The notes below the pieces were generated by a model. The model searched no databases. It saw only the letters and a program-made list of their open reading frames with translations, and had not been told where the DNA came from. A stretch of DNA of 18,516 bases from Monoraphidium neglectum (lineage: Eukaryota > Chlorophyta > Chlorophyceae > Sphaeropleales > Selenastraceae), in contig NW_014012933.1 of the NCBI RefSeq assembly GCF_000611645.1, forward strand, positions 2,459 to 20,974, written 5' to 3'. Positions 2,516-17,216 of the stretch are shown here, piece by piece. Numbering within the stretch: position 1 is the stretch's first letter; each line of letters opens with the position of its first letter. Position numbers and translations under genes: made by a program.

Positions 2516-3218
2516 TCACCGGGTGTCTGCGTTCTTCTGGCTCTGCGTCTGCAGCGCGGCCTCGGTGACGGCGCGGCGGTACTCGTCCCGCAGCTTGGCG
2601 GCCTCCTCGTACCGCCCGTCGGCCAATGCGGTCTCCATGGCGACCACCATGCGCAGCAGGCGGTTGTGGGTCATCTCGTGGACGATGTGGTCGTGGAAGG
2701 ACCTGCGATGGCCGGGTGCGGTTGTGAGGGGGCCGGGGTGCGATGGGCGTGGGGGTGAGAGGGGAGGGGGGTAATTGGGGTTGGCCCTTGTGCGGGCATG
2801 CCTTGTACGGGGCAGTGCGGGCACGTCTGGCGGCGCCAGCTGGGCAATCTTCGGCCTCGTCAACCGCACGAGCGCCCGCCCGCCCGCCTGCCGACCCGCA
2901 GCTGCCCCCATCCCACGACAAAGCGTGTCAGTCTCAACACGTGAGCGAGCGCCTCGCTGCGCCGCCGCCCTGCCTGGCCCCCAGGGCTGCGGCCTGCCCA
3001 CCTGGCGTCCTCAAAGCGCTCCTCCTTTATCGCGAGCTCCTTTTGGAGCTGAAACATCACCTGGGCCGGGGGTGAACGGTCGGGTGGATCGAAAGCTTGA
3101 TTTGAAACCATGTTTGCTTGGGTGTCGGTGCATGTGAGGGAGCGGGTGAGACGCGCATACGAGCGTTCGAGTTTGTTCCCTTCCAAGTGCGCATGCGAGC
3201 GCTTTATGCGAGTGTCAG

Positions 3219-3283
<65 letters not shown>

Positions 3284-5121
3284 TGGAGCCACGGTGCGTG
3301 TGGGTGTTACCCCGCGTCGCCGCTGCGGCACCGGGCGCGGCTCTGTTTAAGCCCAGGTGAGATCATGCGATCCACAGCCGCGCCCACCGTGGGGTCGTCG
3401 TAGGATGACAGCGCGTCGCGCACGCTCCTGACAATCTCCGCGTTGCTCTCCGTGGGCTGGTAGCTCGTCGCGGCCGGGCTGCTCGGGGAGGCCTGGGTGG
3501 TGCCGCAGGCAGCAGGGGGTTTGGGGGGGGGCGCGAATTTTATGATTCAACGCTGGCGACATTGGTGCCGCTGCTGGCGCTGGGGCCGCTCCCGCCGCTG
3601 CTGCCGCTACTCCTGCTGCCGCCGCGGCAGCTGCTGCTGCTGCTGCTGCTGCTGCTGCCGCTGCTGCTGCCGCTGCTGCTGCTGCTGCCGCTGCTGCTGC
3701 TGCCACGCCAGCAGCTGCTACTATTTCTTGGTCGCGCAGCATCACAGCAGCGACCGCCCCCTCTCCATGAGCCTCGAAACGCTGCGTGCGCCGCCCCCCC
3801 CCCAAAAAAACCGAGGGGCTCGTCCCGCCACAACGGCCGCCCCTGCACTCCCACTCCCGACTGCCGGCTCACCGACAGCCCAAACGGCTCCAGCGGGGGT
3901 GTGGCGGCCGCCTCGACGATCTTCTTGGCCACGTACATGGGGGCGCCGAAGCGAACGGCCAGGTTGATCGCGTCAGAGGGCCGCGCGTCCACGTCGACCT
4001 CGGCGGCCTCTGCCGGGTTTGAGGAGTCCGAGGCGGGGCGCGCGAGGTGGATGCGTGCGTAGTACGTGTTGGCGATGATGTCGGTCACGCGGATCTGGGT
4101 TTGTGGGGTGTGGCGTCGGCGGCGGTGAGGAGCGGGGTAGGGTGGCGGAAACAGGCCGCGGGGTGGGGGCCAAGTAGGGTGGGTCGCGCCAGGCGGCGAA
4201 GCGAGCGCGTGCGTGCGGCGCGAGCTGTGGGTGGTGGAGGAAAGCAATCCGCGTCTGCCAGAGGTGCTTGGTGCGACCCAGGGTGGTGTCGCTCAGCCAA
4301 CACCGCACCCCCGCTTGGGGGCCCGAGCGCCTCGCCCCGCCGGCAGACCAGGGGCGCGCCCCCGCTCGCCTCAGACCGGGCGCCGCCCGCAAGGCCGCTG
4401 CCCTCGCGCCGTCCCCATGACCCGCACCCCCCGCCCCCTGCCCGCGGCCCGCACCTTGGTCACCCGGAACCCGATCGCCTGCAGCATGTTCTTGGCCATG
4501 TCGTGTGTCAGGGGCCGCGACTGGCGCTGCTTGTTGATCTCCTTGAGGAGCGCGTTGGACTCGGCTTCCCCAATGTGAACAGGGATGACGTAGCCCGTGG
4601 TGTCGAGCACCCGCAGGTAAACAACCGCGCTGCCCTGCGACACGCGCACGCTGTCCACCTTGACCTGCAGGGGCGGGCGGTTGGCGGGTCGGGAACGGGG
4701 CCCCTGGGCGCGCGCGGCCGGGGCGCCGCGCGGCGTGCGCCGTCCACATGGGCCTGCACGCGCCCACGCTGTCGGGCGCTAGTGTGTTTGACGCCCACGA
4801 CGCGCCACGCTGCGGCGTGATCGATATGCTCGTGGCCTGCCCAAGCGACCTAGCGGCCCCTTTCCCACGTGGGGCGCTGCCAGGGTGCTTCCCATTGGCC
4901 CTGCTCGTCCGGTCATGGCCCTTGGGCGCAGCCCTTGAACGCTTGCAGTGCCCGTGACTGATCCCATTGAACCACTCGCTTCATCAGCGCACCTCAATGT
5001 ACTCCGCGTCGACCTCCCTGCTGCTTGCCCTCACGACCAGCGACCGCGGCACCCTGCTTGCTTGCCGCGGGCTAGGTCTGGCGAGGCGTGCTGCCGGGGC
5101 AAACTGAGCTCTAAGCTGCAT
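2516..5121 (-). CDS. BBD: BBD-type bifunctional nuclease (BFN/DUF151 domain plus UVR motifs), probably plastid-targeted
   Basis: Six exons, all phase-consistent: 5121-4993, 4664-4455, 4094-3873, 3492-3388, 3060-3002 and 2702-2516 (TGA), giving 303 aa. Residues 1-35 are Arg/Ala/Ser/Pro-rich with no acidic residue, like an algal chloroplast transit peptide. Residues about 37-180 are a BFN (DUF151) domain: VDAEYIE, VIPVHIGEAESNALL, LTHDMAKNMLQAIGFRV, and the signature DARPSDAINLAVRFGAP (149-165). Two UVR-type motifs follow: a degenerate one (QKELAIKEERFEDAR, about 228-242) and a good one (ALADGRYEEAAKLRDEY, about 267-283). This is the order seen in plant BBD1/BBD2 proteins (bifunctional nuclease in basal defence response), whose homologues are reported to degrade DNA and RNA; UVR motifs usually mediate protein contacts. 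The start is supported by AAAAG before the ATG. The weakest junction is the acceptor of exon 4 (CACCCAG at 3497-3493), next to a CAG repeat. Confidence 0.9.
3221..3282. repeat. (TG)31 microsatellite in BBD intron 4
   Basis: Uninterrupted TG dinucleotides, 31 units. In the BBD sense strand this is (CA)31, within the 327-nt intron between exons 4 and 5. Confidence 0.98.
3562..3712. repeat. CTG/CAG trinucleotide tract in BBD intron 3
   Basis: CTG and CCG triplets, purest at about 3631-3710. In the BBD sense strand it reads CAG/CGG. It lies upstream of the exon 4 acceptor. If translated it gives poly-Ser, poly-Ala or poly-Gln depending on frame; the frame continuing exon 3 is poly-Ser and stops at 3540-3542. 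Confidence 0.95.
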
Positions 5122-6655: not shown

Positions 6656-9530
6656 GCGGTTTTACGACATCGTGTACGCTGACGCGGCCCCCCTGAAGCG
6701 CTACCACGCGACCGCCAACGGCTGCAACCACGCGGTCGCGTCGCCCTGGCTGGACGGCCGCCGCACCGTGCACTTTACCATTGCCCTGGCGCTGCCCTCA
6801 GCCTTTCAAAAGATCGTCGGTGAGGGGGCGGGGCTGGGGGCAGCCCAGGAGGCGCGCGACGTGCAGGCGTACGCCTGCGCCCGAAACGGCTGCGCCGCGG
6901 CGCGGGCGGGGCCGCGGCTTGCAGCTCGTCGGGGCTGGCCGGGGCCGCCGGGGTGCGGATGCCGGGTGGCCGTGGGCACGCCTGTACATGATGGCCGGGC
7001 TGCAACATGCAGTGGGTTCCGTGCGGCACGGCGCGGCGCCGTGCGCATGGGCGCTCTTTTGACCAACCCATGCGTGTAATACTGCGTGTGTGCAGGCGCC
7101 GGGCCCATCCCAGTGCGCGAGGTCCAGACTGTTGTGTGGGACGGCGGCTGCAGCTTCACAGTGACGTCAGAGCCGGAACTGACGGTGGGCTGCTGCTCTT
7201 TGTTATCGCGGCGGCGTCCTGAGGGCCCGGGGAAGCTTTCTGGCGCCGCTGCTGCCGCGCGACGCTGCGGGCCGCATCCGCGTCCGCCCACCTCCCGACC
7301 GCGCAGCAGCAGTCGCGCCGTGGAGTCACCCGCTCGGCTCTGCGGTTTCAAGCTGCGGGAGCTCCTGGTGTTGCCATCATGATCACCGTCGTGCCGCCCC
7401 GCTCGCTCCGCCCCATCCATTGCAGTTCCCCGGCGCCGCCAACTTCCCGACCCACGCGCAGCTGACGGTGCGCGACGCGCCCTGCGGCGCGCTGGCCGCC
7501 GTCGCGCTGTCGTGCCTGGTGCGCTGCAGCGCGGGCGTGCCGTGGGTCATGCAGAAGACGGTGGAGGGGCTGATGGCCGACCAGGCCAAGCAGTCACTGG
7601 CTGGATTCCTCGACTTCTGCGAGGTGAGGGGGGCGGGGTCTGCTCGCCTTTTGGGGACTCCCAGGGGGGTGCGGGCATCCACTGCGCGGCAGGAGCTGCA
7701 GCCTCCGCAGTTCGACGCCGAGGACGGCGGAGCAAAAATTGTGCAGAGGGGGTGCGCCCGGGAGGCGCGGCAGGCCGGGGGTTGGCTGCAGCAGACGTGC
7801 GCGCGCCAGGGGCCTGCTGATTGCTCAGGCGTTGGCGCAGGGTCTTGAGCCGGCGCGCGGCGACGAGGGTGCGTGGAATCTCTGCTTGTTTTTACAGCTG
7901 TCCTGGTCCCTGCCGGCTGCGCAGCCCGGGGCGTGTGCGGCCGCGCCTGACGGGCTGCAAACTTGCCTGACTCTCCCTGCTGCGTTTTCAGATGCTCTGC
8001 AAGGAGCACCTGGCTGCCCCTGTTCCCGCACCACGGCCAAAGCTGGCTCCCCTCGCTTCGGAGCCTGGCCCGGCGGCAGCTGCCGCCGTGGTTGTGGACG
8101 CGACGGGGGACGCTTTGACATGCGACAGCAGCGCCGGCAGCGGCAGCAGCCGCGGCATCGGCGCGCGCATCAAGGGGGACAAGGAATGGGTGGTCGCGCC
8201 CGACACGCCGCCACTCGCGGCCAGCAGCGGCGCGGCGGAGGCGGCCGCGGTGGTGGCGGCGGCGCGGCTGCTGCTCTCCGCTGCGACGCCGCAGGCGGAC
8301 GCGGCGAGCGCCACGTTGGTCGTGCCCACGGCGCACGAGGGCGGTGCCCTGCCTGCCTGTGCGGCTTCCGGGCCCAGTTCACCGTTGGCAGGTGCGGCTG
8401 CTGAGGGCGCCGCCCTGCTTGCTGCGGCGCCCTCCGAGAGTGCCGCGCCATTCGAGGCGGCCGCGCAGTCCGACAGTGCCGAGCTGCACGAGGCTGCGGC
8501 GCAGTCCGAGATTGCCGAGCCGTCCGTGGCTGAGGCGCAGTCCGAGAGTGCCGCGCAGTCCGAGGCTGAGGCACAGTCGGAGGGTGCCGCGCCGTCTGAG
8601 GTTGTGGCGCAGTTCGAGAGTGCCGTGCCGTCTGAGGTTGTGGCGCAGTCTCAGAATGCCGCGCCTTCCGAGGCTGCGGCACAGTCCGAGGACTCGGGGG
8701 CCGAGAGCGAGGACGAGTTTTTCGATGCGACAGAGGGCGGCCTGCGGCGGCAGCAGCTTGAGCAGCGGCTGCTGGACGAGCAGCCGCAGCAGGAGGAGGA
8801 GCTGCAGCAGCGGGAGCAGCAGCAGCAGCAGCAGCATCCATTAGAGGAGCAGCAGCAGCAGCAAGAGGAGCAGCAGCATCGGCAGCAGGATGTCGCATCT
8901 CGCAGCATTTCAAGGGTGGTGGCGGCATCGGCGCCCCCTGCAGCAGCGCCGGCCGACGCGGTGCAGTTGATCGAGTCTTTGGTGGGGCAGATAGCAGAGC
9001 TTGGGCAGGCCCAATTGAACAGCAACAGGTGCGCATCCCAAGGCCTGAGACTCGTGGTTTAGATACACGCCCCTTGCGCGATTAGCCGTGTCACGCACCT
9101 CTTCCTTCCCTTTGCCTTGATGTTGCAGCCCCCCCTGACTGTTGCACCAAACACCTCCCGGCGCATTCGCCACTCAGCGTCCCGCTGCGCCAGCGAAACA
9201 CCACATCCGCGCCCCTTCTGTGCCAGCATCCAACACTTCCGCTGCCATCGCCGTGGCGCACACCCGCAACTGGCGCTCGACACAACCCCCTGAAACCCCC
9301 CCAGGCTGCTGGCCGAGGTGGAGGCGCGCCTGCGCAGCGTTGAGCTGGACCTGGCTAAGGCGCTGGCCTACCAGGAGGGCCAGGCCTCAGTGCTGGACCT
9401 CGTGCGGCGCAGGGGCGGCCTGCAGTATGCCAGCGGCGGCCTCGGGGCCGGCACGGCGGCGCTGCTGGTGGCGGCGGCGGCCGCGGGCGGCGTCGCCGCG
9501 CTCGTGCTGCTGCGGCGCAGGGCGGGCTGA
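6345..9530 (+). CDS. VASt-domain lipid-transfer-like protein with C-terminal tail anchor
   Basis: Six exons: 6345-6395, 6657-6819, 7096-7184, 7426-7623, 7992-9028 and 9305-9530 (TGA). All phases agree, giving 587 aa. Residues about 1-175 form a VASt domain (VAD1/GRAMD1/Lam family StAR-like sterol or lipid binding fold): AKIDARVYGVDAQRFYDIVY, LKRYHATANGCNHAVASPW, REVQTVVWDGG, and the C-terminal helix VPWVMQKTVEGLMADQAKQS. The long exon 5 carries an Ala-rich linker, seven 12-residue repeats (about 317-400), an acidic segment and a Q/E-rich stretch (about 419-468). Exon 6 gives a coiled-coil-like helix (LLAEVEARLRSVELDLAKAL) and a 21-residue hydrophobic helix (about 562-582) followed by RRRAG-stop, a typical tail anchor. 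The family usually has a GRAM domain before VASt; none is seen here. The start has good context (GCAGCCATGG) with an in-frame TAG nine codons upstream, although a farther 5' exon cannot be excluded. Likely site: ER or contact-site membrane, VASt facing the cytosol. Confidence 0.85.
6614..6652. repeat. (CA)n tract abutting the exon 2 acceptor of the VASt gene
   Basis: About 19 CA units run directly into GCAG|CGG, the acceptor of exon 2. The CA tract occupies the usual polypyrimidine position; a C/T-rich stretch lies just upstream of it. Confidence 0.95.
8439..8690 (+). repeat. Coding minisatellite: seven 36-bp units (12 aa each)
   Basis: Seven tandem units, consensus roughly SAAPSEAAAQSE, run in exact 36-nt register inside exon 5 of the VASt gene. 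The fifth, sixth and seventh units are the closest to each other. A partial unit (AAPSE) precedes the array. Confidence 0.9.
8746..8893 (+). repeat. CAG/GAG-rich coding tract (Gln/Glu-rich segment)
   Basis: Imperfect CAG, GAG and CTG triplets encode runs such as QQREQQQQQQHPLEEQQQQQ in the VASt protein, probably a charged helical spacer between the lipid-binding domain and the tail anchor. Confidence 0.85.
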
Positions 9531-10123: not shown

Positions 10124-11253
10124 ACCAGTCGTGTCTGTCAGGCCCATGCAGCATTTCTTGCATCCTTGATGGCAGCAACGGGCCCATTCATGGGGCAGGG
10201 GTGTGACAAGGCCAACAGTGCAGGCTGCGCAAAGCGGCCATGTCAGCCACAGAAGTGCTATAACAAAACGGCAGGCCAGCAAATGCAGAGCGTTATATAT
10301 GCCAAGCATCAGGGCAAGCTGTCTTGCTTGAAGCCACGAATGTAGAAAGAAGAGAGTGGCTGCAGCTGCATTGCATAAATCAAGATCACAAGCTGAAACA
10401 ACAACCAGTGCCACGCCCAACAACCTGCGCAACATCTACAGGCTGGGCATGCCTTGGAGCACGCGGCAGTGATGATGGTGAAGCATATCCCCCTGGTCCA
10501 GGTGGCGGCGGCCCCTCTTGCCGGGCAATCACAGGCGGCCACGGGCGTGCGCACACGCAGCTCGCGTGCTGCGCTGCTCTGTGCGCCTAAATCTGTCTGA
10601 CAGGCTGGACCCCTCTGTGTGCCGACAACGCTGTGTGGAATTGTTGAAACACATCAGGCTTTACTGTGACGCCATACCCTTTATACATCCCATCACGCAA
10701 ACTTGACCCATCCGCATGTGCAGATCGTCACGCGTCACCCGCCGAAAGCGCCAACTCAGCCGGCACAGGTCGCCGGGGACAGCAATCGTGTAGCACAAAG
10801 TATATGTACATTCCACGATGGGTACATGCAAGTTGAGCTGCTGCCCGTCCACCTCGCGACGCGGCCAGGTGCGGTGCGGCGGCACAAACATAGAGCGTGT
10901 TTGCAAACAAAGCACATCCGATGTCCTGCAGAACCGACAGCATGAAATGCTATGGACAGCGCCACAGGGCGCGGAGAACATCAAACAAAATGCAATTGAG
11001 GCATGCTAGTATGTGACAAGCCTGCAGAGAACGTTTTCGCCGCATGAAGTGAGCATCAAACGGCTGGCCTGGGGTTCCACCGCTCGCTGCCGCGGACCCC
11101 TCCCCGCCCTTGGCTTTGCGCGACCCCGATTCCTGTCCAGCCCTTGCCGTGTGCTGTGACGTGTGTGCGTATCCTCCATCGGGCGGTTGTTTATTTGCTG
11201 CACAGCACCTCATGTGAGAGCCCGGACAGGCGCCGGTGAACATCGTCAGTTGC

Positions 11254-12630
11254 CTAGTGCTTTGGGGCAGCGGGCGCAGGGTTGGCAGCAGCAGGGGCCT
11301 CTGCCTCGGGCTCAAACGCAGGAGCCGCCGCTGAGGCTCCCGCAGCAGGCGCAGCGCCCTTGGCTACGTGGCAGTTATGAGGGGGACGAGGGGTGAGAGT
11401 GGGCAAATTGTGAGCGTGGAGCTGAGGGGGCTAACGCAGGGTCCACATTTATAGCAGCTGCACAGTCTGATTTTTGCGCGCATGATACCCTCGTGATGTC
11501 AGCTGCGGCTGGCTGGCGCATTGGCTGCCAAGCAAGACGTCGGAGTGGGACTCAGTGTTACGAAGCAAGCAACGCCCGCGTTCCGAACGTGGCCAGCACC
11601 CACCAAAGGGAGCAAGCTGGGGTCGCCATTCCAGCAGCAGGGCAAGGCACCAACATCGAGACCGGCAGCACCAGGCGGCAGCGCAGCAAGCAAGGGACCA
11701 AGGGGGTCAGTTGGAGCAGAGGGTCATGTTTGAAGCCGCTGAAAGGATATGCATATATGGCTGCACCTGCGACAGCAGGGACGGTGCGGGTCACACCCCT
11801 TGCAGCCATGCTTCGTATCACAAGCGGCACCGTCGCGTGTGTGTGCCCACTATGACCTCCGTCTAAATCTGCGCAGCAGGCGCATGCCAATTGTTGACTC
11901 CGTGGCGCGCATGGAAGCCCCCAGCTCCCGTGGCCCACCTTGCCGGCAGGGCCGTATCCGGGTTTGAAGTGAATTATCGTGGGCGTGGGGGCGGCACCGG
12001 GGGTCCCTTGAAGCACGGTTGGGCCCTTGACCCATTCACCGCCCTGGATTTCCACCTTGCCCGGCACAGTTTTGGGGAGGGAGCCTTTGCCGTGCGCGAT
12101 GTACGTGGTGGTGCCGACGACGTTCACGCTGCCTTGGGTGAAGCTGCCGCCGCCAGTCGTGAAGGAGAAACCGGGGATTGTCTTGGTGCCAAGAGAAACC
12201 CCCGCGTACCCCTCGCCAAAGCCGATGGGGTTGATGGTCCTGGTCTCCGCGGGCTGAGCAGGCTGGGCTGGCAGGCCGAGCGCGCCCTTCCCAATGATGT
12301 CTTTTGCAAGCAGCGCCCTGCGGCCGGCAAAGCGGACGGGCGTCGGCCTGCGTGCCATGACGCGCGGGTGCATGGCGGGGTGCCGGGCAGGTGAGCACGT
12401 GCGGTGGTGGGGCTGAGGTGCATGGTGGGGCTGGCATTGCACGCAATGCACAATCTACATTAAATTTAGGTGACTTCAGAAGCCGGGACCCATTGCATTG
12501 GGCAGTGGCGCCCTGTGCCTGCACCGTCGTTTCTCTGTCAAGGTACCGTACGCAGGCAACATGCCCAACCCCACCTGGCAGCCCCGCAGCCGGCCAGAAG
12601 AACCACGAGCAGAATTATTGTTAATTTCAT
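11254..12630 (-). CDS. Small secreted protein, cluster member A (unknown family)
   Basis: Three exons: 12630-12575, 12347-11939 and 11358-11254 (TAG), giving 189 aa. Exon 1 encodes a signal peptide, MKLTIILLVVLLAGCGAA; the next codon (Arg) is split by the intron (AG|G), and signal peptidase cleavage is likely after GAA or close by. The mature part starts RPTPVRF and contains IGKGALG, then a Gly/Thr/Val/Ser-rich probable beta region (TTGGGSFTQGSVNVVGTTTY, VEIQGGEWVKGPTV), a Pro/Gly tail (FKPGYGPAGK) and an Ala/Pro-rich C-terminus ending APKH. There is no Cys after the signal peptide. It aligns with the next gene (14025-14635) along its length. Exon 3 is the uncertain part: the chosen acceptor is AAG at 11361-11359; a TAG five bases upstream would shift frame. 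Family and function unknown; extracellular or cell wall location is inferred. Confidence 0.72.
12433..12455. repeat. Palindromic short repeat, copy 1
   Basis: GGCATTGCA, one base, then GCAATGCACAATC. It lies in intron 1 of cluster gene A and matches copy 2 at 13131-13155 except for the spacer. Confidence 0.6.
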
Positions 12631-12736
12631 GGCTGATTGAGCTCAGTGGCGCGCGGGCACTCGTTCCAATGGCTCTGCTCAGCGCCCGATCCTGAAACGG
12701 CCGGTGACAACAGGTGCAAAGCCGTCACAGATTGAA

Positions 12737-12755
12737 AGCTGAGAATTATTCAGCT
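12737..12755 (-). promoter_or_regulatory. AT-rich inverted repeat upstream of cluster gene A
   Basis: AGCTGA - GAATTAT - TCAGCT lies about 110-125 nt before the gene A ATG. AT-rich candidates occur at a similar distance before genes B and C, so this may be part of the core promoter. Weak evidence. Confidence 0.25.
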
Positions 12756-13130
12756 ATGAAAGGCGCACTCGCTCGCAATTCCACACAAGCAGTCCAGGAT
12801 CAACCGTGTCGTAACTGAGGTGACTCGGCGTCAACCGTCGCTGCAGTATGCCCTCAAAATAAAATAAATACGTCATAACGCTGCCTTCACTCTGCAAGGC
12901 GTTTGCAAAGCATGACCTGGTCCGCATCTAACCGCACTCGGTAGTTGTGTGCCCGTGCAACAGCTCTGCAGGTTCCTACCTTGCGCACTGGCGCGTGTGC
13001 TAACATAAGTTCGGGCAGACTATGTGTCAAACTCACAGCACCTAACGCATACCCACAGCATGCGCCCTGTGTGCAATAACGGCATCATGGACGCTCAGCG
13101 CCACATGCAGGAGCACCTCATAGGCGGCAT

Positions 13131-13155
13131 GGCATTGCATTTGCAATGCACAATC
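13131..13155. repeat. Palindromic short repeat, copy 2
   Basis: GCATTGCA TT TGCAATGC is a perfect inverted repeat (13132-13149). It is followed by the same ACAATC tail as copy 1, about 700 bp away. Confidence 0.6.
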
Positions 13156-13250
13156 CATTGCATCATCCTGAAAAATACACCTGCTGCACCACTGTATCAG
13201 AAACCCTTGATTTTGCAGTGACGTTTTTGAAACGATGGACTGTCACACAG

Positions 13251-13260
13251 TTACATTACA
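13251..13260 (-). terminator. Candidate tandem TGTAA poly(A) signals (distal), cluster gene B
   Basis: The minus strand reads TGTAATGTAA. This is about 770 nt past the gene B stop codon, an alternative to the nearer site at 13730-13734. Confidence 0.3.
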
Positions 13261-13729
13261 AGTCGCGCTCGCTCGTCCACACCGCCCGGGATCAAGTCAG
13301 CATTCAAGTCCTTCTTGTCAGTTGCACCCAGAACGCCTCTGTGCGACAAGGACCTGGGACACGTGCTCGCTGGTAGCTAAGACAGTGATTTACATGGATT
13401 TTAACATGATGCTGAACCAATCGTTGCCAGAGCAGTGCCAGCAAGCTCAGAGCAGTGATCGCGATACATTCAAGAGCCCCACCACGCGCATGCGCTGGGG
13501 AGCAGCATCTGAGCCCCCATATGACTGTGTCAAACGTGCCATGCATGCGTAGAAGTGTTTTGCACTGGCGGCTGCCATTCACAGGAATGGGTGCTACAGC
13601 CAACGATGGCACACAGGCAGGTTGGCCATTTGGTAACACCCGGTCGCAAAACCCTCGGCGAAAACAAGTGTATACTCGATGGGAACGGCGCCGCAGTGGT
13701 GCCTGCCAACACAGCGTTCAAGTGGTTAC

Positions 13730-13734
13730 TTACA
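13730..13734 (-). terminator. Candidate TGTAA poly(A) signal (proximal), cluster gene B
   Basis: The minus strand reads TGTAAGTAACC, about 290 nt after the gene B stop codon, a usual distance for green-algal transcripts. Confidence 0.4.
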
Positions 13735-14024
13735 CGGGCCGGCGCTGAGGCCAATTCGTTCCAGGGCCTATGGCGGGACAATGCCGACTCAGAACCCCGG
13801 CACCCACCATGCATGTCGCTGTGTGCATGTCCCTCGACTGTGTGAGCTTCAGATCAGGCCCTCGTGCCAGCAGGCGGTCCGTCGCATCCCCTTGAGGCAT
13901 GCGCCAAGCTATTCAGCAATGAGTCATGGGTGCACTGCTGCGCCTCTGCCTGGCCGCCGGCCCACGCCGTGCGCCCGGCGCGTGCGCCTGCACGCACGCG
14001 CACGTCGCGCAGCAGGGCAGCGCT

Positions 14025-14635
14025 TCAGCGCCCGCCGACCTTGTCGACTGGACCGGCGACGGACGCGACGTCCAGGGTGGTTGTGGGGGCCTTGGTGACC
14101 GACAGCATGGGCTGCGTGAAGGTGCGCCCCTGCACGGCGACCTGGGGGGCCTTGCCGGTCCCCCCCTTCAAGACCAGGACGCTCCCGCCGCTGACGCCGC
14201 CGCCGCCAAAGGAGATGACGGCGGCAGGCGGGTAGGGCTCGGTGCTGCCCTTGCCGGGGAAGAAGTCGGTGCCGAGCAGCACGCGGCCCTCTGGGGTTGG
14301 CCTGTGGGAGCAGAGGGGTGGGTGGGTTCTGGGTGTCACGGTGGTGGTGACAACGGTGGGCGGAGCAGGTGGGCGCCAGGTGGAGCAGCTTAACAGCGCC
14401 AAATCGTGGTGAATTCTGGCGGCGGCGGAGTGAAAGCTATGGAAGCAGCACAATGCACGCAGGTGCTCGCGCTGCACGGGACGCAATGCCACACGTCATG
14501 ATGCCACGCAAGTGCGCCAGTGATGCTGACGCTTGCTAGTGTGTGAGATGACCCTGGCAACGCCTGGCCGCACCTGGCAGCCTCGCAGCTGGCCAGAAGG
14601 ACCAAGACGGCCAGAAATACGGCAGCCTTCATCAT
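14025..14635 (-). CDS. Small secreted protein, cluster member B (paralog of A)
   Basis: Two exons: 14635-14574 and 14301-14025 (TGA), giving 112 aa. Exon 1 encodes MMKAAVFLAVLVLLASCEAA, a clean signal peptide; the intron is phase 2, splitting the Arg codon. The acceptor CTCCCACAG is strong. The mature protein starts RPTPEGRVLLGTDFFPGKG and continues with a Gly-rich turn (SFGGGGVSGGS), VLVLKGGTGKAPQVAVQG and SVTKAPTTTLDVASV, ending GPVDKVGGR. It has no Cys after the signal peptide. Matches to gene A: RPTP, GR.LL, GKG, GGG, GSV.V, V.(I/V)QG, AP.(P/T)T and GP..KV. The last 32 nt of the signal exon plus donor match gene A at 29 positions. It lacks the Ala/Pro exon 3 of gene A: the equivalent donor reads AAG|GTCGGC, and translation continues four codons to a stop. 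Function unknown. Confidence 0.78.
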
Positions 14636-16199
14636 GGGTGGGACAACGTGTGGATATCGAGATGAGGTTGAACGGGTATGTTCCCGGCCAACTTGGAGCT
14701 GCAGGTGGTAGCAATGCGCGTGTGTCAATTAGCTGTAGTGAATACTTAAAACCAACATCAATCACTGAAGATTTTATGGGATCCGCCGGCAGAGAGCAGT
14801 GACAGTGTTCGGGTGACACCCAACGAACGTCTCAACGTCCGCGATGCTGCCACTTCTGTCACGCAATGCGCTTATCTCAAATCGCCTCTGGTACATGTCA
14901 AAGTTTCACCGTCGGGGAGTTGGCAATAGAGTCTCACCAGCGAGGTTCCCCCCTTCAACAGCTGGGGGGAACAGCTGCAGCAGTGGTAGCTTGCCACCTG
15001 CTGAACCACGATGGCGCCTCAGCGGGGAGGCACACGCTCCTTCGAGCTTTGTCAATGCGAATAAAGTGGCCGAGGACAAGGAAAGGAGCCCCTGGCTGAT
15101 TGCGTGGCGGGAGTGTGGCTAGAGGATGGGCTTGGGGCAGCTAAGCCGCGTCGCAGCACGATCTCGGCTTTGAGGGGGGCCACATGCACTGCCCCGGTTG
15201 TCGCTGCGGAGCACGCAAGGACCCAGCCCAGTCTGATGTCCGCATGCCGCTTGACATGGCTGCCCGTGCTTTGACAAACAAGCAATCAACGGGCGCAAGG
15301 TGGCGTGCTCGAAACCGCCGCGCGCTGCGGGTGTTTGTAGACAGTGTATAGTGCAGCGCAGGCCATATTACTCAGCAGCAGTCACACACTGGGATGAACG
15401 CACGGGCGGTGCATCAGGAAGGGCGTCCGTGCATGCAGGGTTGAGATGGGCGGGGCTCTCATGAGAGGGGTGCACCTCATGGCCGCGGGCACTGCGGGCG
15501 TACAGTCAGCTCACGCCCACAGCGTTGAGGTTTTGAACGTGCTTCACGGTTTCTTCCATGCTCAAAATTAGGAAAGCGCGCAGATGTGGCGCACAAGGAT
15601 CCACAGTACCAAGTGGTTGGATTTCCTTCAGTAGATGCAAGCAGGTGGTGATTCAGGAATACAAGTCTTGTTGGCGGATGCATCCCTCATGCGAGACATC
15701 CCACTGCCACATGTCTGGGGGCTGCTTGGCGTGTAGGCAGCGCCATAACGGGTACAAACCAGCACACATGGCAAGGCAAACAGCCGGTGGTGATCAATCG
15801 ATGCAGCTCGAAATTGAACTCAAAAACTAAATTGAGTGGCCACTGAATCAATCAAGCCCAGTCAGTAGCTTCTCAAGCAGAGGTGCAGCGTGCGCCCCTC
15901 TTGTCGGTGACCGCAACAGCAGCGCAAGCAAACTCGCTCATTGCAGTGCAAAAACAGCAGAGACGCTGGCGCGCCTACTGCTGGGGTGTGCCTCACTCAC
16001 GCTCCCCAAAACTTTCAAGCCCAGAACGGGTTTGCCATTTCGACAAGCCCCGACCACTGCGACACGGCAGCGTACCTGCGGGCTCTTCGAGTCCTGCATG
16101 CAACATCCGCAGGCACTCAGATGCAGTGCACATGTTATGCTCTCCCCTCCCACTAGCGCCGCACACGAGCTGTCGCGCTGCACCGTCCAATCCACGCCG
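14636..16199. other. Spacer between cluster genes B and C
   Basis: This is the promoter side of gene B and the 3' side of gene C. Open frames at 14533-14802, 15477-15683 and 15558-15830 have near-random third positions and no domain. No minus-strand TGTAA was seen close to the gene C stop codon. No repeat element or RNA gene was recognised. Confidence 0.5.
14741..14752 (-). promoter_or_regulatory. TATA-like AT-rich element upstream of cluster gene B
   Basis: The minus strand reads GTTTTAAGTATT, 106-117 nt before the ATG. Compare a TTTAAG/ATATAC stretch before gene C. Candidate only. Confidence 0.3.
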
Positions 16200-16425
16200 T
16201 CAGCCCTTCTGCAAGCCAGAGAACGGCCAGAACAATATCGGCAGTACCGGCTGCTTCTCGCCCTGCAGTGCCTGCTGGGCCGGGGCTCCAGGTCCCGCCG
16301 CGGACGCCGCGCCGCCTGCAATCTGCTGGGCGATGGGCTCAGCCACAAATGGCGTCAACAGGTCGATCATGCTGACCGGGTCGACAGCACCCCGCTGGTT
16401 CGCGGCAGGCCGATTGGCCCCCTGC

Positions 16426-16470
<45 letters not shown>

Positions 16471-17216
16471 CGCTCAGCTTGCGGCGGTGCCGCCGCGCTG
16501 GGGACAGTTGTGGGGGCAGCCGTATAGGGGAACAGGACGGGCTGCATTGCCAGGGGCCGAGGGAGGCTGCTGTCAGGCTTGGGTCCCTCACCCTGCGGGA
16601 GTGCAGGTTGGATGGGGGGCAGCCAGAGATCTGTGGGCGTGCAGATACAGGTATTAACACCTTCAGCGGGCCTGTGCCGCCCCTGCTGCAGCTTGCCACC
16701 AGCAGGGCTTGCGAGGCATTGAAGCCTTCAGACATGAATTTCAAAGCAGCGCGCGGACAGGCACGTGGGGCCAGCCTGCAGGCATGCGCGGGAGCGTTGC
16801 CACCCCACCGAGGCCACCCCACCTGGGGAAATGCAAGCTGCGGCTTGGCGACGACGTTTCCGTTTTTGTCGTACAGGATGAACGAGTCCACCAGCCTGCC
16901 TTCCCAAGCCCACAAGGACTCCTTGCTGGACCTGGTCAGGGAGATGGGGCGCCCGTACTTATCGTAGAAGACCGTTCCGCTGCGCACGGGCGGCGGGGTC
17001 CTGAGACGGACGGCCGATTCATCACCAAAGGGCCTGTGCGGGGTTTGGGGGATCAGAATAAGATGTTTCGTGACGAAATAGGCCCACGCACACCCCATGG
17101 GGCGCTGCGTGTCCGCGGTCGTAGCACTCTACAATGCTCGGGAGCCATTCTCACCTGCACGCCGCCTGCCTTGCCATGAACATGAGTCCCAATAAGATCC
17201 ATTTGCCAGCAACCAT
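16200..17216 (-). CDS. Small secreted protein with poly-Gln tract, cluster member C
   Basis: Three exons: 17216-17155, 17033-16823 and 16592-16200 (TGA), giving 221 aa. Exon 1 encodes MVAGKWILLGLMFMARQAAC, a short and somewhat atypical signal peptide. As in genes A and B, the intron is phase 2 after AG and the next residues are Arg-Pro (RPFGDES). Exon 2 encodes a compact charged/aromatic region: SGTVFYDKYGRPISLTR, LWAWEGRLVDSFILYDKNGN and VAKPQLAFPQ. Exon 3 is Pro-rich, has 16 Gln in a row (about residues 133-148), then VSMIDLLTPFVAEPIAQQIA and a hydrophobic end (VLPILFWPFSGLQKG). It has no Cys after the signal peptide. An alternative splice (donor at 16808-16807, acceptor CCCACAG at 16634-16633) would keep frame and insert VGWPRWDLWLPPIQPALPQ. 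The family is not recognised; its relation to A and B rests on gene architecture, order and strand, not on clear sequence identity. Confidence 0.7.
16422..16469 (-). repeat. CAG repeat encoding 16 Gln in cluster gene C
   Basis: Sixteen Gln codons (CAG with one CAA), coding strand minus, in exon 3. Confidence 0.95.

Follow-up and report, generated by a model that had tools for sequence, protein, structure and literature searches.

We analysed a stretch of 18,516 nucleotides (nt) from the green alga Monoraphidium neglectum (positions 2459-20974 of contig NW_014012933.1, assembly GCF_000611645.1; hereafter the window), which runs to the end of its contig in an assembly of 34.6 Mb and 1632 contigs. 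The minus strand of the window carries three small genes, A, B and C, each opening with a short exon that resembles a signal peptide. Our reading, to which we give a probability of about 0.6, is that A and B arose by tandem duplication of a single gene whose small protein product is exported through the Sec pathway to the cell surface or extracellular matrix, that C is a neighbouring orphan without convincing kinship to them, and that the AG|G splice found in all three genes is generic.

Probable kinship of A and B, and gene structures

Judged from their sequences, A and B look like diverged tandem paralogues. They match in BLASTP with an E-value of 3e-6, across the signal peptide, the RPTP that follows it and a stretch of the form R.LL..D..GKG, and their full-length local score was reached by none of 2000 shuffles. 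The global score of the mature parts was reached by 12 of 3000 shuffles (48 of 3000 when RPTP was left out), with 34 identities among 85 aligned mature residues. When mature A was compared with the 219 frames of at least 60 residues in the window, the best one after A itself was that of B (score 49). The protein similarity is collinear and the intron position is common to both genes, as expected of a pair of paralogues. The likeness is weak past the first 40 residues, and what remains of the mature parts is barely alignable.

The two genes also match as DNA. A self-comparison with blastn returned a tract of 40 nt with 87.5% identity (E 3e-7; 14568-14607 in A, 12569-12608 in B), which spans the end of the signal exon, the donor and six bases of the intron. 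Codons for identical residues agree 6 times out of 7 within the final ten codons of the signal exon and 11 times out of 34 in the mature part (Fisher P 0.014), a comparison that has seven informative codons and a boundary chosen post hoc, after the match had been seen. Over the whole signal exon, 7 of 10 shared residues use the same codon (P 0.064). The codon match at the exon end possibly stems from gene conversion, from constraint at the donor or from chance.

Gene A consists of an exon 1 of 59 nt (14574-14632, minus strand, as for all features of the three genes), which encodes the signal-like MKAAVFLAVLVLLASCEAA and the AG of a split Arg codon, an intron (14302-14573) and an exon 2 (14025-14301) that encodes the mature PTPEGRVLL...KVGGR and ends in a TGA stop. 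An alternative ATG three bases upstream, at 14635, is possible. In gene B, an exon 1 of 56 nt (12575-12630; signal-like MKLTIILLVVLLAGCGAA and AG) is followed by an intron (12348-12574) and by exon 2 (11939-12347), which reads PTPVRFAGRRALL...GYGPAGK and leads to a donor at 11938. Gene C has three exons: a weak signal-like exon 1 of 62 nt (17155-17216; MVAGKWILLGLMFMARQAAC and AG), an exon 2 (16823-17033; PFGDESAVRL...AFPQ) and an exon 3 with a poly-Gln tract and a TGA stop (16200-16592), separated by introns at 17034-17154 and 16593-16822. A check of the sequence confirmed the positions given by the initial annotation for these minus-strand genes with signal-like first exons of 56-62 nt, together with the phase-2 splices that split an Arg codon ahead of Pro (CAG|GTG donors and ..CAG|GCC acceptors in all three). 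The mature parts had also been described correctly: the second exons encode no Cys, Gly, Thr and Pro are abundant in A and B (as is Val in A), and exon 3 of C is 20% Gln.

Coding potential was assessed with a codon model whose training set was 1723 codons taken from kinase exons at ten loci of this genome, and a coding scan of the whole window reported segments of 9 bits or more. Exon 2 of each gene has a positive score, the best among its six frames: 0.34 in A (with a G+C content at third codon positions, GC3, of 0.92 and a 34.5-bit segment), 0.14 in B (26.6-bit segment) and 0.135 in C (two segments). Scores at least as high were obtained by 1.7%, 4.0% and 4.3%, respectively, of 3000 open random frames of 276 nt. 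Exon 3 of C (one 10-bit segment) is the best of its six frames though slightly below zero (-0.08), and 11% of the 3000 random frames score at least as high. The minus-strand segments found between 10.5 and 17.5 kb all fall in these four exons. Six plus-strand segments of 9-20 bits occur in the same interval: four are antisense to or overlap the three genes or the Gln tract, or lie beside C, and two are at 13.1 and 13.4 kb. None of the signal exons scores above zero; those of A and B (the latter barely) are the best of their six frames, that of C is not.

A last exon of B reaching down to 11254 (11254-11358, an Ala/Pro-rich tail with a TAG stop), implied by the earlier coordinate of the gene, is not supported by codon usage and stays uncertain: its phase fits, but it scores -0.62 with a GC3 of 0.56, against 0.87 in the kinase exons. 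The coding signal of B stops at the donor at 11938, beyond which the frame scores -0.60. Poly(A) signals were uninformative overall, with a TGTAA 291 nt past the stop of A, an AATAAA 59 nt past the stop of B (where the earlier reading ends the gene), and no TGTAA nearer than 800 nt to the stop of either B or C.

The Kyte-Doolittle maxima of the N-terminal exons are 3.42 in A, 3.57 in B and 2.3 in C, cleavage-site residues being judged by eye. We estimated how often such exons arise from a genome background of 165,052 non-N bases (two of its 20 stretches are all N, and nested ATGs were counted apart). Signal-like exons with a phase-2 AG|GT and a hydrophobicity of at least 2.3 are expected 0.67 times per window, against three seen (Poisson P 0.031); at 3.4 or more, 0.11 are expected against two seen (P 0.006, or 0.022 when one background count is added). 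Without the phase-2 requirement, 1.23 signal-like exons are expected per window (P 0.13). In their signal peptides, A and B contain LLAGC and LLASC, which resemble bacterial lipoboxes; this likeness is probably a coincidence, the gene being an intron-bearing eukaryotic one.

Gene C and the split arginine codon

Kinship of C with A and B is at best a possibility, because its match with A is no better than that of an unrelated frame of the window. Comparisons of A with C and of B with C gave no DNA or protein match for the signal exon of C. The common signal exon proposed for the three genes therefore holds for A and B, which match in both protein and DNA, but not for C. The local match between A and C was reached by 22 of 2000 shuffles over the full length and by 13 of 2000 for the mature parts (49 and 64 of 3000 in a second run). 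It lies in a low-complexity stretch, QP.L..T.APTT, at the end of A (14049-14162) and the start of exon 3 of C (16485-16601), both on the minus strand, and BLASTP gives it E-values of 0.31-0.77. Mature A scores 45 with C and 46 with an unrelated plus-strand frame; among the 219 frames, B (49) is followed by the plus-strand frame at 10.3-10.6 kb (46) and then by exon 3 of C (42). The one DNA match between the two genes (25 nt, 92%, E 1.4e-4, with the low-complexity filter off) resembles a GC repeat and pairs exon 2 of A with exon 3 of C. Exon 2 of C matches neither gene: against A, its score was reached by 2616 and, in a global comparison, by 874 of 3000 shuffles, and against B its global score by 2590 of 3000. 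For mature B and C, the local score was reached by 269 and 310 of 3000 shuffles, and, like the A-C score, it does not exceed that of an unrelated frame of the window.

C is a neighbouring orphan that is possibly secreted too, with a signal exon of near-chance quality (such quality and phase being expected 0.67 times per window). Its exon 2 contains two similar motifs, FYDKYGRPI and ILYDKNGNVV (16838-16975, minus strand), possibly an internal duplication.

The AG|G split of the Arg codon is the usual kind of exon junction in this genome, within a small sample. Nine of ten kinase loci yielded pairs whose profile gap was six residues or less, and these provided 14 junctions. One candidate was chosen for each junction so as to restore the kinase motifs, with exon bases left outside the score; for L036 and both junctions of L043 the chosen candidate was not the top-scored one, and there is doubt over the junction of L040 and the second junction of L042. 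The upstream exon ends in AG in 11 of the 14 junctions, the downstream exon starts with G in 12, and both occur in 10. Four junctions are in phase 2: three of these read CAG|GT..CAG|G with a split Arg codon, which in two cases belongs to the kinase motif HRD, and the fourth is doubtful. Since a phase-2 intron usually yields a split AGG Arg, the trait tells little about family membership.

Searches for relatives and folds, and the surroundings

The initial annotation regarded the signal exon as a conserved secretion module, and we saw no genome-wide reuse of it in the 34.6 Mb. A 28-nt signature of the signal exon, searched with up to three mismatches, matched A and B only (control, 0). A codon-degenerate signature with up to two mismatches found nine further places, against three in a reversed control, and, judged by eye, the 60 nt before each of the nine contain nothing that resembles a signal peptide. 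The exon of A, used as an 81-nt query on the genome, returned itself only, missing B, and the paralogue search with exon 2 of B also returned only itself. Weak matches on other contigs (two for A, one for C) looked spurious once their frames were read. Since the own-genome search with A failed to retrieve B, other relatives of similar divergence may have escaped it. What stands of the proposed fast-diverging family is the diverged pair, and not the membership of C, whose signal exon is unlike the others, nor the module.

The statement that these proteins match no known family was borne out against the libraries searched. None of the three reaches a curated cut-off in Pfam or NCBIfam. Among 5.8 billion proteins we found only identical fragments, for A (P0004, two contigs) and B (P0001, one contig), and none for C. 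Viral contigs gave no match for A and B or for C, and prokaryote genomes gave none for exon 2 of B or exon 2 of C, the two queries used there. Searched by sequence with B and C, the PDB gave nothing convincing (lowest E-values 1.4 with B and 0.067 with C). The orphan status of A, B and C is provisional and applies to the libraries searched. A literature search on algal orphan secreted proteins found none, from which we do not claim absence from print. Pherophorins (PF12499), which are volvocine extracellular-matrix proteins, were weighed as possible relatives; A, B and C have no Pfam match at cut-off, and a search of the genome with PF12499, made without a positive control, gave no match. AlphaFold2 produced a poor model of exon 2 of C (predicted local distance difference test score, pLDDT, of 54), with no PDB fold match below E 1.7, and a reading of its two similar motifs as YD-repeat-like was dropped after this result.

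The host of this genome is a photosynthetic eukaryote, since 38 stretches match light-harvesting chlorophyll proteins and the kinase genes have introns; its GC content of 63% in the background sample is consistent with a chlorophyte, as is the style of its genes. The sole recognised domain among the scanned open reading frames of the window is a bifunctional-nuclease domain (BFN, PF02577), in two exons at 3.9-4.7 kb. The region covers 2531-4682 on the minus strand, with a UVR-motif-like stretch downstream, at 2.5-2.7 kb, that is below the Pfam cut-off; the BFN exons were also picked up by the coding scan. On the plus strand, a tandem array of 7.5 copies of 36 bp (8421-8690) encodes an Ala/Ser/Glu/Gln-rich repeat within a coding segment. 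Downstream of B, at 10435 on the minus strand, there is another hydrophobic ATG start (MLRRLLGVALVVVSAC...), whose nearby donor is only TT|GT and around which the coding scan gave no minus-strand segment.

Probable origin of the pair, alternatives and known systems

We regard A and B as tandem duplicates because their second exons look coding, their hydrophobic N-terminal exons end in the same phase, and their similarity extends from the start codon through R.LL..D..GKG. One gene for a small secreted protein would have been duplicated in tandem. In each product, the signal peptide would take the chain to the Sec61 translocon and be removed near the AA|RPTP junction, and the mature Gly/Thr/Pro-rich, Cys-free chain would be deposited extracellularly, most likely in the wall or the surface matrix, where low-complexity proteins may tolerate fast divergence. 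Several observations weigh against this account. The local score of the mature parts of A and B taken apart from the signal peptide is weak, being reached by 174 of 2000 shuffles and, in other runs, by 237 and 291 of 3000. Mature B matches a plus-strand frame at 1.7-2.3 kb better (58) than it matches A (49), and 130 of 255 aligned mature nucleotides are identical. The cleavage site of A is uncertain because a Glu occupies position -3 of the AA|R cut. The location of A and B at the wall is suggested by their composition, and AlphaFold2 on B, run with two sequences, was uninformative (pLDDT 32.6) and therefore lends no support to disorder either.

Some of the exon joins could be due to chance, which we consider a serious possibility of somewhat less than even odds: exon 2 of C would then belong with another first exon that escaped detection, and C would not be secreted. 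The expected frequency of exons with the quality and phase of the one in C favours this, as does the fact that its signal exon is not the best-scoring frame. Yet phase, donor and acceptor all fit, the AAC before the junction gives small residues at -1 and -3, and the coding scan of the window gave no segment on the minus strand before C, although only 1.3 kb of contig is left there. In another account, a short gene-conversion tract would have homogenised the two signal exons of A and B, or a nucleotide-level constraint would hold them at the donor, and the remainder of the two genes would be an old duplication. The 40-nt tract over the exon end and six intron bases would be explained in this way, as would the different codons behind most residues shared elsewhere; with seven informative codons, a post hoc boundary and a P of 0.064 for the whole exon, we find this rather unlikely.

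It is improbable, in our view, that A, B and C belong to a single family of secreted proteins that diverge fast behind a conserved signal exon, as in venom toxins. Such a family would account for three genes on one strand within 6 kb that all begin with a signal-like exon spliced in phase 2 and continue with Arg-Pro, for the few shuffles that reach the A-C score, and for the conservation as DNA of the end of the signal exon between A and B. However, the A-C match sits outside the signal exon, in exon 3 of C, and is equalled by an unrelated plus-strand frame; its DNA counterpart is GC-repeat-like, exon 2 of C matches neither gene, the junction is generic, and the genome searches found no further members. 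A wider version has an even slimmer chance: A and B would be what can be seen of a family of algal secreted proteins in which conversion or selection keeps the DNA of the secretion exon and its donor almost invariant and the mature part diversifies beyond recognition; C would be a distant member. If true, these proteins of a photosynthetic protist would evolve in the manner of venom toxins.

Under the tandem duplication that we favour, A and B are probably an ordinary lineage-specific pair and not a new secretion module, and the pair alone leaves the existing picture unchanged. Among the components of algal walls and surfaces, secreted proteins specific to one lineage have been little explored. 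As a tandem pair with matched introns and one tract that can be read as DNA, A and B offer a small test case for whether signal exons evolve apart from the proteins that they export.

Two known systems invite comparison. The conotoxin gene superfamilies (PMC3862624) comprise venom peptides in large families, whereas here we have one pair, with a Cys-free mature part, in an alga-like genome and with no larger family seen. Introns near signal-peptide cleavage sites are a general phenomenon, mostly in phase 1 and in an AG|G proto-splice context (Tordai and Patthy 2004, as cited by Nielsen and Wernersson 2006, PMC1626468). A and B resemble them in that an AG|G junction falls near the presumed cleavage site. 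The known excess is in phase 1, whereas the introns described here are in phase 2 and are convincing only in the related pair.

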